The position numbers were made by a program, and so were the translations under genes. Below, in pieces: positions 16,378-54,589 of a stretch of DNA of 64,000 bases (position 1 is the first letter of the stretch; each line of letters begins with the position of its first letter). Source of the stretch: Lutjanus erythropterus (taxonomy: Eukaryota; Chordata; Actinopteri; Lutjaniformes; Lutjanidae); assembly GCA_020091685.1 (NCBI GenBank), contig CM034604.1, forward strand, positions 4,949,820-5,013,819. The letters run 5' to 3'. The notes beneath the pieces are model-generated. The model had not been told where the DNA came from. It saw only the letters and a program-made list of their open reading frames with translations, and made no database searches.

Positions 16378-16902
16378 CTACGCCAGCTTCTGTCTGTCCC
16401 TTTGGCTCACGGGCAGACCGGCCGGTTTGAGGGAGGTGGGGATAGGCAGCTTGTGCAGGCTGTCCGGGAAGCTGGCGGGGCTCAGCTGCTTCAGGATAGT
16501 CTGCATAGCGATGAGGAGCAGCGGGGCCGGCCTCCTCCCCGCGAGGTACCTGTAGGTGTCCTCTCCCAACAGCTGGCTCCAGGACTCTGACTCCCTGTCC
16601 AGAGCCGCCTTCAGTTTAAAGTGAACCTTGGGCATGAAGAGGAGCAGGTTGTCCAGACACTGCCTCCTCTCCAGGTCGTTTGACGCCTGCTTCGAGTCCC
16701 CGAGCTTCTCCAGGACCACGTCCAGCGGGGTCAGGCCGTTGTGGTCCAGGGCGAGCGGGGACGCTCCGTTCCCCAGCAGCATGAGGACGGCCTCGGGTCG
16801 CAGGAGCTCGCAGGCCAGATGTAGAGGGGTCCTGCCGTCCTCCATGTGGAAACAGCTGGATCGCTCCGTGTAGGGGGGCGTGCTGGGGACCCGGTGAGTC
16901 TC
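16378..16902 (-). CDS. ankrd9: ankrd9, exon 2 (C-terminal 174 residues and stop)
   Basis: Second coding part of ankyrin repeat domain-containing protein 9. Reading from GAG at 16902 it gives ETHRVPS, then the ankyrin unit DGRTPLHLACELLRPEAV (about residues 143-160 of the joined protein), GASPLALDHNGLTPLDVV, a linker, and the C-terminal block SWSQLLGEDTYRYLAG ... LPIPTSLKP, which parallels human ANKRD9 as I recall it (WQRLLGED, LPLPPFLQP). ANKRD9 is reported to be a substrate receptor of a cullin-RING ubiquitin ligase and to control IMPDH2 abundance. The acceptor is TGCTTACAG|GAG after a C-rich tract. Phase 0. With exon 1 the product is 295 residues, against 317 in human. The strip between this exon and exon 1 is a hAT-like insertion. 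Confidence 0.92.
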   Translation of the reverse strand, partial: ETHRVPSTPPYTERSSCFHMEDGRTPLHLACELLRPEAVLMLLGNGASPLALDHNGLTPLDVVLEKLGDSKQASNDLERRQCLDNLLLFMPKVHFKLKAALDRESESWSQLLGEDTYRYLAGRRPAPLLLIAMQTILKQLSPASFPDSLHKLPIPTSLKPAGLPVSQRDRQKLA

Positions 16903-16909
16903 CTGTAAG

Positions 16910-18157
16910 CAGGGTGGGGTCAGATTACCTTGAAATGCAGTCAGGACAGAAAACTATAACACCAATCACATGGCAAATTTTGTAATCAATGATGTAATGC
17001 ACTGGATTATAAAAATGTAAAATAATCTGAATACTTTTGGATTTTTTCAAACATTCAAACGTTGAAAATATTCCACCTCACACTAAAAAAACCACAAATA
17101 TCTCAAAACATTTTCAATGCAAATAAAATGTATTTTTCTTGGTATTATTTTTTCTCCTGTCAGGTCCACCACAAGTGGAGTTAACAAAAATTATCATTAG
17201 TTTCATAAATTAATTTTAAAATGCCCATATTTTAAAGAAATAATCCCCAATTTCCTGTGGCATTAATGATGTTCTGAAGATCTAAAATGTAATCAAATAA
17301 TCCTTGACAATGGAACTATAATCTAATTACACATTTTTGCACATGTAATCTGGGCTGATTACTTATTTTATACTTTTTATTTCAAAATCTAGCCTTTTTA
17401 TTTAATTATTATCACATTTATCTTATAATTATGACCTTCTCATAATTTCAACTTTTTATCTCAGTATTATGAATTTTCATTATTGATTTTAATCTTGTAA
17501 TTATAACTGTTCATCTCATTTATGACATTTTATCTATTAATTTTGACTTTTTATTTCATTATTATGACCGTTTATCTCAATTTAAACTTTCTACTCCCAT
17601 AATTTCAACAATTAACCTAATAATTATGATTTTTTTTATCTCATTATTTTGACTTTTATATCAGAATTGTGACTTATTTCATTATTTTGACTGTTTATCT
17701 CACAATTTCCTATATTTTTCAATGTCAAAATTATTATGGGGACATTTTTTTCCTTTTACTGGCAGAAATGGGCTTCTATAGACAAGAAATAAAGACTTAA
17801 ATATTTGATAATAAAATATTTAGTAGCAGTGACAGTTCTGTGTATGTATGGACTTTATGTATCTTTAACAGCAGATACTGTATGTATTTCCTTCGGGAGA
17901 GTAAAGTATATCTTATCTTATCATGATATCTTAAGTCTTTACCAATTTCTGTTGAATGACTTTATTATTCTTCAGTCCATGATATACAGTCTGAGTTTAT
18001 TTTGATCTGCTGCATGTGTGGTTGCATTTACGAATGTAGTATTTTCTATAAAATAAAAATGTTAACGTCTTTTTTTTTTCTAAATGTCAACGTCTTAAAT
18101 ATTCTATAACATTTTTTGTAATCTGATTACATGTAATCTATTACTAGCCAAACTGTG
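16910..18157. mobile_element. hAT-like element forming the ankrd9 intron
   Basis: The 1248-bp insert begins CAGGGTGGGGTCAGATTACC and ends, reverse-complemented, CACAGTTTGGCTAGTAATAG then ATTACATGTAATC, both close to the common fish hAT-type terminus CAGGGTTGGGTAGTAAC. The gene-strand flanks are CCTACAGG (18158-18165) and CTTACAGG (16902-16909), an 8-bp TSD with one mismatch. Inside lies a degenerate array of TTATCTCATAATTATGAC-type units (about 17395-17715) and, at 17870-17930, CCTTCGGGAGAGTAAAGTAT, resembling a LINE 3' tail. No transposase. A related segment lies at 20690-20990. See the finding on intron gain. Confidence 0.78.
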
Positions 18158-18158
18158 C

Positions 18159-18521
18159 CTGTAGGATGAGGCCGAGGATGTATCGGCGGTCGTAGCGGAC
18201 AGCCATGGCCAGGTGCGGGGCGGAGGACGGGCAGCAGCAGAAACGCTCCCCGGGCTTCGCTAACGCCTGCTCGGTGTAGCGGCTCAGCAGGTACTGGGCG
18301 TACGCCTGGTGGTCGTGGACTATCGCGTAGAGCAGCGCCTCCGACGGGCTGTAAATCCTCTGACCGACCTCCTCCTCCTGGTAGAAGGTCTCCATGGTCC
18401 GCATGTCCTCCAGCATCCAGACCGGCTTCAGGTCCCGCACGGCCCGGTAGAAGAGCAGCGAGAAGGACTTGCGGTGTCTGTCGAAGCTCCGAGCCGCAGA
18501 GCTGACGGTTAAAGAGGCCAT
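18159..18521 (-). CDS. ankrd9: ankrd9, exon 1 (N-terminal 121 residues)
   Basis: The start ATG at 18521 sits in a strong Kozak context (GTCGCCATGG). The product opens MASLTVSSAARSFDRHRK, then SLLFYRAVRDLKPVWMLEDM (residues 21-40), matching the human ANKRD9 block FYQAVRDLLPVWLLEDMR as recalled. Ankyrin-like helices follow: IYSPSEALLYAIVHDHQAYA (about 56-75) and APHLAMAVRYDRRYILGLIL (101-120). Residue 121 is Gln (CAG), followed by GCACAG, so the donor would be GC rather than GT. Read-through without splicing adds AQFG and stops, giving a 125-residue truncated protein. In human the coding region is, to my knowledge, uninterrupted. Exon is GC-rich. Identity is secure; splice use is inferred. Confidence 0.93.
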
Positions 18522-18830: not shown

Positions 18831-20500
18831 CTTTATTGACAATCAGGATCAAAATATCTGAACAGTTGATAGTGTTTTTATTTTACTTTATTATGTTTAG
18901 AACACTTTACAAATATCTTTAAACATACATAGGAAGATATTTCGATAAAAAAAGAAAAGAAATAAAGAAAACGGAAAAGAAAAGGGGGGAAAAAGACAGG
19001 ACGAAAATATACACAGGAGTAGCATATGACAGATCATAGAAGCCCTTTTAAGTCATGAAACAAAAAGACGAAATTGTGAGATTAAAAATGTGACTTTTTA
19101 GGTAACACTTTATTTAAAAGGGTGTGCAAGACTGTCATGACACTGTCATAACCACTGTTTGGCATAATATGCTGATAATAAAAATAATAATAATAATAGT
19201 AATAAAAATAACTGTATTTATGTAGAACCTTTAAGAAACAGAGTTTGAAAGACAAAGCAAAAGTGCAGGACACCCAGGAGGCAAAATAACAAGGTGAGGC
19301 CAACAAAATGAGGCCAAACAAAAGCAATACTGACAGAAACTGTTGTATGCTGTGTATGTTAAACTAGAGGAGAGGTGTTTTGTTTGTTGACCTATTCACC
19401 TTACCTTCTTGCAAAACTGGCCCTGTATTCCACATCACGTACTTTTTCTTTTTACTTTTAGTACATATTGCAGCTGCCCTTAAAAAATGTACCGTTTCAT
19501 GCAGTATGCATACAACTGAGACATAGTACTTCCTCATAAGATGGTGCCTTGTGCTTTGACCATGTTGCTCACACGCCCACCACAAAGGATTGGGTCAGAA
19601 TAGACAGAAAAAACATGCTGGCTTGCATACTTCAAAATGCGAGTGCCTGCAGTAGGACATCCTGGTATTTTCTGCGTACTGCATCTGACATTAGGGGCGT
19701 TTGAGGTGAGCCAGGCCTGCTCAGAATCGATCACCGGCGATTGCCACACAGTGCATGCATGTTATGCAATGAAGTTCTAATCTGTTAACACGTATATATT
19801 TTGTGGCTGATAATAATAATATATTACTTCTCAAATTAATAGCTGCAAAGTGCTTTACAAGGCAGATAAAATAACAGAGGATCATGTAACAGTAGGGGGT
19901 TCTCTCTGCTTCAACTTTATCAGTCATCAAGAACTCACTTTATCTTTTCAGCTATGAACGTGGTCTGCAAACTACAGGTAGTCCACAGGTGATCTAACAG
20001 GATGTTAGCGTTTCTTCCTGCATGTTCTCTGAAGTCTGCTGGAAACCGTTCAAGTTGTCTGCAGACTTTTCATCACCGTCTCCTGCTGCAGCCGCCTGAT
20101 CTCATCTACTTTCCTGACGTGGCGCAGTTCATCTCGAACGAGCCTACAATAAATCTTTTTCTGATATGCTAAATAGTATGGTAGTGGGGGTACTGGAGTG
20201 CACAGTGAGTCTCTGTAGAGGTCTTGATTAGTAGAATGAGATGCAGCTGGTGAAGCTCTGCTCCACCTCAGGCACAATCTGTCTACAATCAGCCAATCAC
20301 ATACTCACACACGGCGAGGGAGAGAGAGAGAGACTGCAGGCTAGTCAGAAGAATTGCAAATAGCTGAGGTTTGTCGGTCAAAACTGTGAAATCAAAACTG
20401 TGTGAAGGGCCAAACCATGAGCCTGATATTTATTATCTATTGTTCATTTCAGAAACCAAGGACCAGATTGGACTCCATATTCTTTAAATCCAGTGATATG
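18831..20500. other. Repeat debris upstream of ankrd9
   Basis: No supported gene. GGTAACACTTTATTTAAA with CTGTCATGACACTGTCAT at 19097-19145 resembles a common fish DNA-element end. ATAATAATAATA with TGTAGAACC (19170-19240) and GCAAAGTGCTTTACAAGGC (about 19844-19862) resemble LINE/SINE 3' tails. 19440-19690 has GCAGTATGCATAC / CGTACTGCAT, typical of another dispersed fish element. A 75-codon minus-strand frame at 20050-20277 has no recognised similarity. Confidence 0.45.
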
Positions 20501-21440
20501 TAGTGGAAGAAGTACTCAGATCACTTAATGAAGTCAAAGTTCCAATACCACAGTGCAAAAATACTCTGTTAGAAGTAGAAGTCCTATATTCGAAATGCTG
20601 CAATGAGTAAAAGTAAAATGCAAATAACGCACATTTTTGCATGGTGTTCTTTTTGTCCTGCCAGGTACAATACAATACAGATGTATTTTCATGGGTTAAC
20701 AGAGCATTACTTATCATGAAAAAAGACAATTTAAAAATGCCCATCTTTTAAAGAAATAATCCAGAATTTCCTTCTGAAGATCAAAAATGTAAGCAAGTGA
20801 TTCTGACAATGTAACTGTAATCTAATTACACATTTTCTGCAATGTAATATGGGCTGATTACTTATTTTATCCTTGTTTTAAACTTTTTATTTCATTATTA
20901 TCACTTTTATCTCATAATTTTGGTGTTTTAGTTAGTTAGTTTAGTTTTCTCATTGATGTCTATCTCATAATCATGACTTCATCAGTTAATCTCAATCATG
21001 ACAATTAAGCCCCCTTTCAGAGTGTTACATTATGGAGCCTTCAAGAGGGAGATTGTTTTTATTTTTAATCTTATAGACATGTTATTATCATGTGCAACAA
21101 GATTTGCATTCTTATAAGTACCATTCTCATACGTACATGATGACCTTGTGTAAACCCAGCATACCTTTGCACAACTTTACTTACCTTTGAGAGTGTGTGG
21201 GGCCTTAAATCTGTAACAATGCATCATATTCTATAACTTGATTTAATATTTTTTTTCTATTTAAAATCAAATTAGCTAATAACTATATCACTTAAATAAA
21301 TGTAGTGGAGTAAAAAGTGCAATATTTGTGGTGAAGTAGAAGTATAGTAGCATTATTGTAGCCTACATAAGTAAAGTATGATACCTCCAAACTGGACATC
21401 AGTAAATATCTTGAGTTAAAGGTACTTTACTTAATGTAAT
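20501..21440. mobile_element. hAT-type 'AGTGGAAGAAGTACTC' element, composite
   Basis: The left end TAGTGGAAGAAGTACTCAGA, with CACAGTGCAAAAATACTCTG inside, matches a very common percomorph non-autonomous hAT family. Its right part reappears at 21300-21440 (AGTAAAGTATGATACC, AAGGTACTTTACTTAATG). Between them, 20690-20990 matches the interior of the ankrd9-intron element (AAAGAAATAATCC, GTAATCTAATTACACATTTT, GGGCTGATTACTTATTTTAT), so one element appears nested in another. Confidence 0.6.
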
Positions 21441-29269: not shown

Positions 29270-30600
29270 CCTCGCCAGACAAAACAATGTCAAATGAGGC
29301 ACAAGTTCTGAACTATCATTTCTAATCGATTAATTATCAGTTAATACATGTTTAATCGGTTAAATCCTTATTTACTAATTAATCAATTAATGATTAATTG
29401 TTTACGTTCTATGTACATATGTGAGCGCGTCCTCTGGCTGGGGGGCTCAGCTTTCCTTAGATACAAGTAAGGTGGGCTCCAAGGAAATAGGTTAGGAACC
29501 ACTGTCCAAGAGCCATCTATTGACCAGCCGTCACGCCGGCGCTTTTGGCCACGCCGAGCCAAACTGTACCACACTGAATTGCATTTCCATCATCGCTTTC
29601 AGTGCACTGAGCAGCACCAAGCCACACCCGAGGTGGACCTACTGTGGAGTGGGGCCAAAGTGAGCCCGACCCGTCTCCAAGCGGGCTGCGGTGACATCTC
29701 AGCTAACCTGTGATGAGCCTCCTTTCTCCCCCTTAAACGAGTGTGTGATGTGACACTCAGCTCATGTGTGTCCAGGAGAGCAGAGAGAAGACGTTTCATA
29801 AAGTCTCTTTATGCTCAGCTCTCTTTACTTTTGTAGCTCCTAACAGAATCTTTATCTTTTGAAATGTAGTTTCTCTCCTCTGTCGCAGTTTGAACTTTCA
29901 GGTATCTGCATCGGTCTCGTGTTAAGTTACTGCCGATTTAAAGCGTTTAAATAACGAAACAACAGGGGACTTTTATTGTGAAGAGTTTAAGGAAACGGTG
30001 TGCTTATCCAAGAGATATGACTGGTTTATCCACCGATTTACAGCCACTCGACTTGAGCTTCCTCCAGCTGGTCTTCAGTTAAAAGACACACCTTCAAGCA
30101 GGCAGCCCTGCTGTTATAGAAATGCAAACCCCTGTCACATTGGGCTGACGGGCCGAGTCAAACCGAGTCGAGCCAGGCCAGCTCTTTGTCTGACATGCTC
30201 CTATTATGCTAACTGCTAATGGAAAATATAAAGCTCTCATTCTAATGCAATTCTTATTTTCAGTTGATTATACACTAATGAAACCATAATATTATATTTT
30301 ATTTCTGACATAATGTGTCAATAGAGCACCCTAAATATTACACACTGGTCCTTTAAATTCTCTGCAGGCTGGGTACAGAATCTCTTGAGTGTCTGTACTC
30401 AGTGTTTAATGGTAGAAAAATAGGGTTTTATTATAAAGATGGTACTGAAAGTGAGTCAAGTGCTCTGCTAATTTGCCCTTCATATATAAATGAGGTGTGT
30501 AGGGCTGCATTCATTTCTAGAATGAGGTCAGGTCAAGCATCACTTACCTTTTTCCTTTGTAATCTGATCACATATAATCTATTACACATGCAGTAATCTG
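29270..30600. other. Repeat-rich stretch
   Basis: 29520-29560 has GCGCTTTTGGCCACGCCGAG with CCAAACTG after it, and 30145-30180 has GGGCCGAGTCAAACCGAGTC, inverted-looking GC-rich ends of a common fish MITE. CACACTGGTCCTTTAAA at 30342-30358 is another element end. GTAATCTGATCACATATAAT near 30557-30576 is a fragment related to the ankrd9-intron hAT. No exon supported. Confidence 0.4.
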
Positions 30601-52180: not shown

Positions 52181-53156
52181 CTAGACAGTACTCTCCATCA
52201 CCCAGTCAGCACTGTCTATTGTCCCCTTACTGCCCCCTGTGTCCCCCTCCTCCTCACACTGCAGCAGCATGCCGTTCACAGACAGGCTCCTCTTAGTCCA
52301 GATACTGCTGATCCTGCGCGGTTTGCTGCAGAGCTGAGCGGCGCCGGCGCCTGTTACATCTCCCATGTCGAAGGACTGGCTCCTCTTTGGCTTGGAGTCC
52401 AGAGGTAGCATGAGGAGCCGGCTCAGGCTGGAGTCCAGCGTCCGGCCCAGCAGCGGCTCCCTGTCTGTGTGGGGTTTAGCTGCCGTCATCGCAGCGCTAC
52501 TGGAGGCTCCCGGGTCGCACCCCTGCGCACTCCGCAGATCGAGCGAGGTGAAGGCCCCCAGGAGGTGGTCCAGATTGGCCCGGGGCTTGGAGGCAGCCGA
52601 CCTCCAGATGTTGGCAAGTGTGCTGTTGGGGCTGTACGAGCCCCCGGCCATGGAGCCTGAAGAGGAGGAGGAAGATGTGAGGCTGCTCTGCAGGGAGCCG
52701 CACTTGAACTCCACCACCTCGTCCTGCAGGGTCACCTTGGCCTTGACCTTTGGCTCAGGCTGAGCCTGAGCCTGAGACTGGGGCATGAGAAGTCCATTCT
52801 GCCCAAGTCGCCCCCCATTGGTCTGGGAGTGCGTGTCACTGACGCTGGTCAGCTTACCTACAGGGGGTTCAGTATCTGCAGCTTTGTAGCGCACCATGAG
52901 GATGACGATGAAGACGAGCAGAGTCGCCACGATGATGCCCCCCACCACCAGGATCATGGTTCCCCCCAGCAGCTGGCTGGGCAGAGACTGGCACTGAGGG
53001 TACTCGTCCTGGGTGTAGAAGTGGGTGCAGCCCACCACGTTGGTGGCCGTGAGCGTGGTGGCGGTGTCATCCCAGGCGGCCAGCACGCACAGGTCGTAGC
53101 GGGTCCCCGGCACCAGATTGGTCACCAGGAAAGCTTTGCTGGAGGCCGGGATCATC
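52181..53156 (-). CDS. lrfn2: lrfn2 (SALM1), last coding exon
   Basis: C-terminal 324 residues of leucine-rich repeat and fibronectin type III domain-containing protein 2, a postsynaptic adhesion molecule. It starts in the fibronectin III domain (FLVTNLVPGTRYDLCVLAAW), then EYPQCQS, a transmembrane helix GGTMILVVGGIIVATLLVFI at about residues 64-88, a basic stop-transfer MVRYK, and a Ser/Pro-rich cytoplasmic tail with HTDREPLLG, KRSQSFDMGD and SIWTKRSLSVNGMLL. It ends in ESTV, a class I PDZ ligand that in SALM1-3 binds PSD-95; LRFN5 lacks it. FDMGD, NGMLL and VMESTV match human LRFN2 as recalled better than LRFN1 or LRFN4. The acceptor is TTGTTCAG|G at 53156, phase 2. The LRR/Ig exon is not in the window. 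I cannot say whether this is the a or b paralogue. Confidence 0.93.
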
Positions 53157-54589
53157 CTGAACAAAGACAGGAAAAAACAATTAAGAGCTGCAGGTTAATT
53201 ACTGTATGAAGATGAGGAGGTCTTCATCTGTAACAGCCTGGGATGATATCTCATTTCCAGACACAGGGGCAGCTGTAAAAACCTAGAGGAGTCATACAGG
53301 AAATGCTATTAATGATTGAGCCATTAGCATCTGATGAGCTACACATCAGTTAGCATGCTCTTTTTCAATTTTCTTTATTTTGCAAAGTCATTAAAAACAT
53401 TTACTCATTCCATTGCCTCAACTCGTCTCCACAACACACACATACCATACATACTCAACATCCCCTCAAATTGTTATTCCACAGATGTGCCTTGATTGGA
53501 CAACAATATGATATTTGCTAATATCACAAAGTCTGCAATGATATGATTTTGATTTGATTCAATTCAGGGGTCTGCAATCGGTATTCAGCGACATCATATG
53601 TCCATTTAACACAATCAGTTATATTTATGCCAACTCACAAAAAGTAACTCAGTTATGATTCAGCAACTCTTCCAGACATTTAGGACACAGACACGTCAGG
53701 GGAATTTCAAAATAAAGGTGCGTCTTAAAGATAACGTTACACCTTTAAGACACAATGACATTATAAACCAGCCTTGGACTGGTCACAATAAGAGGACACT
53801 CTAAAATTTGCAGTTTGATCTCGGAAAGAAAGACGTTTATTAAGCACTGAACTAAGGCTATTTCATGTAGGGCTACAAAATCCACATTGTTTCCCCAAGG
53901 AGGGCAAAGTCAACAAAAGCAATGCAATTAAATTTTTGTTGAATTCAGATTCATCTACACAGATAGGTGCACATTAATTTTTTTGTATATTTCTAACAAG
54001 TTTGCTCCAGATGCTGTTGAAAATCATTGGTTGCTCTTTAAGCAGTTCCTCCAGGAAGTTGCGATCACAACAATTCACGCAAATTCAACCAATCCCCTTG
54101 AATTCTCTGCGACTTTGCAATTTTGTCCAAACTCCAGAACTGCATATTCTGCATATTGGACCATTCATCTTTGTTTCTTGCAAGTTCCTCCAATCACAGC
54201 AGTCCCCTGCATGATGTACATCATACATGTACATCTCAATGAACTGATTCAGTGTTTTATTATTCTTTTTTTGAAATTATTTTGTCAAGAACACAACATA
54301 CGTGTATGAGATCCCCATAGTTTGCATCATATCGTGAGCATAGGAGACACTCTGGGACTGATCTGATGGAGGTGAAATTAAACTGCAGAAGTCTATGCTT
54401 GGTATTAACCAAATTTGTGACTTTTTAAATAGTTTTTCCCATTCATTCGACATTTTTCATATCCTACATCAATTCATAGTTAGGCTGTGCAGAACTGTAG
54501 CTCATTTCACTGTTAATGTTATTATGATTCCCTTTTGTGAGTTTGTTTCTGAAATACTGGGAAAGTTTTTAACTGGCAGTGACAGCGTC

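Follow-up and report, generated by a model that had tools for sequence, protein, structure and literature searches.

Vertebrates very rarely gain new introns, and where such an intron came from can usually no longer be read. The nearest parallel in the literature that we found, as far as the accessible text of that study goes, is intron 3 of the notothenioid slc26a2 gene, which was made by the DNA-transposon-like element NTE-1; the same study also finds convergent intron positions (PMC12357937). As at the ankrd9 locus described here, an inverted-repeat element lies in a coding exon of a teleost gene, and the splice sites fall within the direct and inverted repeats, an arrangement that we likewise propose for ankrd9. 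The two cases differ in detail: slc26a2/NTE-1 has 4-nt direct repeats, tgt...aca ends and gt-ag splice sites, whereas ankrd9 has an 8-bp duplication, CAGGG ends and a putative GC donor. In addition, the slc26a2 intron is common to five species, whereas the ankrd9 insertion is described from one genome and its splicing is predicted from sequence.

In introners, the target duplication of a DNA transposon supplies splice sites and removal leaves the mRNA unchanged, as in the arrangement proposed for ankrd9; the available part of the introner paper limits them, among animals, to two groups and describes no such pattern in vertebrates (PMC9860276). Introners are present as many introns per genome, whereas a single locus is examined here, and because one locus makes no introner family we class the ankrd9 insertion as a probable intron of transposon origin, not an introner. 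An earlier reading of this DNA from its letters alone (the sequence-only reading) had regarded the introner arrangement as rarely documented in vertebrates; the notothenioid slc26a2 intron is already published (PMC12357937). A third comparison is provided by the fish MC2R and MC5R receptors, which carry novel introns mostly at MAG|R proto-splice sites and, like ankrd9, are otherwise intronless genes of ray-finned fishes; the accessible text gives these introns no demonstrated insertion mechanism, whereas the element and its duplication at ankrd9 are still readable (PMC3151243). The portions of the ANKRD9 literature that were available held no account of the structure of the gene.

Here, we analyze a window of 64,000 nucleotides from Lutjanus erythropterus in which ankrd9 is interrupted by a transposon. 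We propose, with a probability of roughly 0.58, that the insertion is a transposon-made GC-AG intron, and we infer that it is spliced from at least part of the transcripts.

Results

Organization of the interrupted ankrd9 gene

The ankrd9 coding sequence is split after Gln121 by 1256 extra nucleotides, which correspond to the 1248-bp element plus one 8-bp target copy (Table 1). The element has a G+C content of 26%, as compared with 64% in both ankrd9 exons. Deletion of positions 18158-16903 (1256 nt) generates an open frame encoding a 295-aa ankrd9 protein. The sequence-only reading had placed a 1248-bp interruption between Gln121 and Glu122, with exact removal restoring the frame at phase 0 and a stop after 125 residues if splicing fails, and all three statements are borne out by the coordinates. 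The joined protein matches best to ankrd9 of the snapper Symphorus nematophorus (94%), followed by one record at 87% and by two sciaenids and Pagrus at 86%, an order that by itself makes a lutjanid source probable. A Pfam search, which gave ankyrin families, and PDB, Rfam and tRNA scans were uninformative about the putative intron. Elsewhere in the window, a 327-aa open frame at 52181-53164 (-) reads as a fibronectin-type end, a transmembrane segment and a serine-rich tail, and presumably resembles an LRFN-type synaptic protein.

Table 1. Features of the ankrd9 locus and of the inserted element, in window coordinates; splice-site scores come from matrices built on approximate frequencies.
Feature	Positions	Strand	Details
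ankrd9 exon A, codons 1-121	18159..18521	-	ATG-started open frame; last codons CTA CAG; 0/121 residue differences relative to Symphorus P0001
ankrd9 exon B, codons 122-295 and stop (16380-16378)	16378..16902; sense codons 16902-16381	-	174 codons open; 16/173 aligned residues differ from Symphorus P0001
TAG stop reached if the insertion is retained	18144..18146	-	read-through frame of 125 aa
hAT-type non-autonomous element, 1248 bp	16910..18157	.	+ strand CAGGGTGGGG...CCAAACTGTG; ends found in other copies
Target copy CCTGTAAG, exon B side	16902..16909	+	gene strand CTTACAGG; would provide the acceptor AG; 7/8 identical to the other copy
Target copy CCTGTAGG, exon A side	18158..18165	+	gene strand CCTACAGG; would provide CAG as the exon end plus the first intron base (+1); 7/8 identical to the other copy
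AT-rich degenerate tandem array, ~20-bp unit, within the element	17486..17702	.	Tandem Repeats Finder
Fragment related to the element interior, no recognised ends	20617..21006	+	68% over a 432-column alignment
Putative GC donor CAG|GCACAG	18157..18158	-	score -2.4; rank 72/193 GT/GC sites
Putative acceptor AG, CCACCCTGCTTACAG|GAG	16903..16904	-	score 7.7; rank 7/141 AG sites

The interruption has the ends and target duplication of a hAT-type element

Members of the hAT superfamily are recognized by an 8-bp target duplication, by short inverted ends starting CA(G) and, in autonomous relatives, by a hAT transposase. Within the window alone, the inverted match between the two ends of the element is equalled by 0.032 of 5000 random pairs in the anchored comparison, and 0.044 of splice-like pairs from the 64 kb have 8-mers that agree at seven or more positions; these statistics are marginal, little better than chance. 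The ends and the duplication are convincing because other copies in the same genome share them. Chance formation of the ends was thus rejected only once these copies had been found, the window statistics being insufficient.

The search of the fish's own genome covered 937.6 Mb in 444 contigs. With the whole insert as query, at least 68 matches were listed (40 scored of 1190 candidates), mostly in the AT-rich tandem part. At locus L031 the match starts exactly at the first base of the element, CAGGGTTGGGTCAGATTAC. L032 contains both family ends, CAGGGTTGGA...CCCAACCCTG, on a 930-bp element with left end CAGGGTTGGATCAG and flanks CAAAAAGC/TAAAAAGC that are equal at 7/8 positions; its middle does not match the ankrd9 element throughout. 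L038 is a 1215-bp element, also with both ends, whose in-register flanks GTGTTTGC/ATGTTTGT are equal at 6/8. The left end is common to these three loci and degraded in L039. A search with the right end generated eight matches, one being the query, and five of the seven others have a full or near-full end: L035 and L036 finish in CCCAACCCTG, and L034, L038 and L040 in near variants, while L037 is more degraded and L039 is without the end. None of the remaining right-end loci could be assigned a left end together with a flanking duplication.

The 8-bp duplication is therefore present at ankrd9 (7/8), L032 (7/8) and L038 (6/8), and the short inverted ends are shared, with CAGGGTTGGG on the left and CCCAACCCTG or near variants on the right at other loci. 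By its ends and its duplication, the inserted element is a hAT-type non-autonomous transposon, as far as sequence can assign it. Read by eye against the family ends, the ankrd9 copy has 1/10 positions changed on the left and 3/10 changed plus one extra base on the right. The hAT-type ends and one-mismatch duplication claimed earlier thus recur in other genome copies, and the claimed relative of the element interior within the window was also recovered, its best block reaching 78% at 20728-20922. The adjacent segment at 20432-20616 resembles another common fish repeat, starting GTGGAAGAAGTACTCAGATC. A 21-base match (3 mismatches) to the right-end region of the element lies at 30566-30586 (-), without the terminal CCCAACCCTG; none is expected in 100 shuffles. 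Two sequence words of the element had no match in published paper text, scans of viral and prokaryote collections with element patterns gave zero matches, and a protein scan of viral contigs found no relative.

The target site was continuous coding sequence

Exon sequence directly abuts the outer side of both target copies, and the element fills the interruption. With the target duplicated and exon on both outer sides, ATCCTACAGGAGACT was unbroken coding sequence before the element landed. The ankrd9 protein has three matches in its own genome among 36 candidates scored, two of which are the halves of this gene. The third is an ankrd9-like paralog, 47% identical (contig C15, L043:1453-2334, minus strand), with a single 293-aa open frame that runs across the position corresponding to the insertion. 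No second ankrd9 copy or retrocopy was present among the 36 scored candidates. The duplicated target and the continuous paralog uphold the earlier claim of a hAT insertion into the ankrd9 coding exon and show, at the level of sequence comparison, that the exon was uninterrupted in this lineage when the element inserted.

Predicted splice sites at the two junctions

The bases AG|G are the last of the duplicated 8-mer and stand exactly where precise removal requires an acceptor, and the target copy on the exon A side itself scores 9.3 as an acceptor. The earlier proposal that one duplicate supplies the acceptor fits the high rank of this site. Its counterpart, that the other duplicate and the first element bases make a GC donor, holds for the sequence CAG|GCACAG, but that donor is poor. 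GC donors usually compensate with a closer match to the consensus elsewhere, according to the available text of one survey (PMC2490688). On the same matrices, an end of the family-majority type would give the donor CAG|GCAGGG a score of +2.2 instead of -2.4, and the acceptor would score 6.1 instead of 7.7. Relative to the family-majority end, the predicted donor is weakened and the predicted acceptor strengthened.

CAG|GCACAG is the sole donor that restores the 295-aa protein. Other frame-keeping donor/acceptor pairs outscore the GC pair, which is itself missing from the pair list as donors scoring below 0 were omitted. The transcript might be spliced elsewhere, for example from the GT at 18368 in exon A (donor score 5.0) to the same acceptor, which would keep the frame and give a shortened 225-aa protein. 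Such a product would lose residues 52-121, a part of exon A that is identical to Symphorus, and we consider use of these other sites quite improbable.

Exon B is conserved while the element copy has decayed

Exon B carries 4-7 window-specific residue changes relative to five outgroups, and Symphorus-specific changes number 3-7; its distance to these outgroups lies in the upper 9-25% among 65 fishes. In simulations of a neutrally evolving exon B at 10% divergence, ~33 of 174 residues were changed and the open frame survived in 0.27 of indel-free runs and in 0.002 of those that allowed 0.1 indel for each substitution; at 5% divergence, 17.5 residues were changed and the frame stayed open in 0.50 of runs without and 0.049 with indels. 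Compared with the majority sequence of four further left ends, all taken from loci obtained otherwise than by a left-end genome search, the element copy is different at 29 of 143 positions (20%), and these four depart from the majority at 13/140, 21/124, 27/143 and 15/139 positions. By these comparisons the element copy is decayed while exon B appears to have been kept open and conserved. The divergence of the element may be partly older than the insertion.

The two exons differ in their relation to Symphorus (Table 1). Among the 89 pairs with a similar exon B distance, out of 3207, none equalled this contrast, the lowest exon A count being 1. The contrast could come from relaxation of exon B in the two lineages alike or from unusual constraint on exon A. 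There is no support for strong relaxation of exon B along the window branch, the window-specific and Symphorus-specific changes being about equal, though the contrast with Symphorus stays odd.

These data bear on the possibility that the same hAT insertion is damaging, with imprecise removal, a product ending after 125 residues and a broken gene or allele. The very weak GC donor, which would have been stronger when the element landed if its end then was majority-like, would accord with damage, as would the in-frame TAG shortly past the junction and the exon A/B contrast, and a duplication with one mismatch in eight allows a young insertion. Against a broken gene stand an exon B that is open and conserved despite the decayed element copy, the AG|G falling precisely on the final bases of the duplicated target, and the similar numbers of window-specific and Symphorus-specific changes in exon B. 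A search for the 125-aa read-through form in other species likewise gave four matches of 12 candidates, none of them with the ..LILQAQFG tail of a truncated relative. We regard a damaged gene as possible but less probable than the intron.

The same codon in ankrd9 proteins of other fishes

An LGLILQ-type motif is present in 108 of the 144 proteins collected. In two of these, P0121 and P0122 (85% and 83% identity with the 125-aa query), similarity ends right after the Gln and Val (a GTN codon) is next, the continuation expected from an unspliced CAG|GTN donor. The exon A part of P0122 is nearest to Genypterus blacodes (90%), and that of P0121 to six percomorph proteins (88%). A search with exon B collected 38 proteins of 135 candidates, with no element reading upstream among the junction rows listed (only the start for motif-less rows). 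Complete proteins in other records are no proof of an intronless gene because many are gene models. P0015 of Dicentrarchus labrax has ten extra residues, ETRAARCDLQ (122-131), exactly at the ankrd9 junction, which are either an alternative acceptor in the gene model or inserted filler.

An intron at this site in other fishes, named by the sequence-only reading as a sign of an old intron, is thus partly indicated by P0121 and P0122, but the target duplication shows that the exon was continuous in this lineage at insertion. If percomorph ankrd9 had an old spliceosomal intron into which repeats had moved, with the hAT ends and duplication arising by chance, these two proteins and the marginal within-window statistics would fit. 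This reading was rejected, and we judge it highly improbable: both element ends are family ends lying flush with both junctions, with exon just outside the target copies, whereas an element entering a pre-existing intron would be flanked by parts of that intron, and the paralog is uninterrupted. Alternatively, the boundary after Gln121 may be a hot spot at which several percomorph lineages gained introns independently, this fish being caught in the act through a hAT element with an acceptor-like target; we find this unlikely, and offer it only tentatively.

Discussion

In the pathway that we favor, a hAT-type non-autonomous transposon entered an uninterrupted ankrd9 exon at CCTACAGG and duplicated the 8-mer, a target that already resembled a 3' splice site. 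The copy on the exon B side, following the pyrimidine-rich end of the element, would then have served as acceptor, and the copy on the exon A side together with the first element bases as a GC donor. A phase-0 GC-AG intron of 1256 nt would thereby be removed from at least part of the mRNA, yielding, we infer, the 295-aa protein.

Splicing is favored because AG|G ends the duplicated 8-mer, exon B is open, the element has decayed but exon B has not, and the distance of exon B is not extreme. The intron reading is weakened because the donor is very weak, better-scoring frame-keeping pairs exist and part of the divergence of the element may predate the insertion. The position of exon B in the upper 9-25% of distances and the contrast with Symphorus could also point to some relaxation of exon B. 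Thus, of the original claim that ankrd9 gained an intron from a hAT-like transposon, the insertion and the target-derived AG acceptor stand, while the donor is poor and splicing is the predicted step.

At this locus one can still see the element with its two ends and the target duplication, and also a paralog that has no interruption, and so the origin of the interruption can be read from the DNA. If the insertion is not spliced, a conserved gene would be broken in a fish assembly. If it is spliced, ankrd9 would represent a vertebrate case in which the target duplication of a hAT element contributed to both splice sites, the GC donor being unusually weak.
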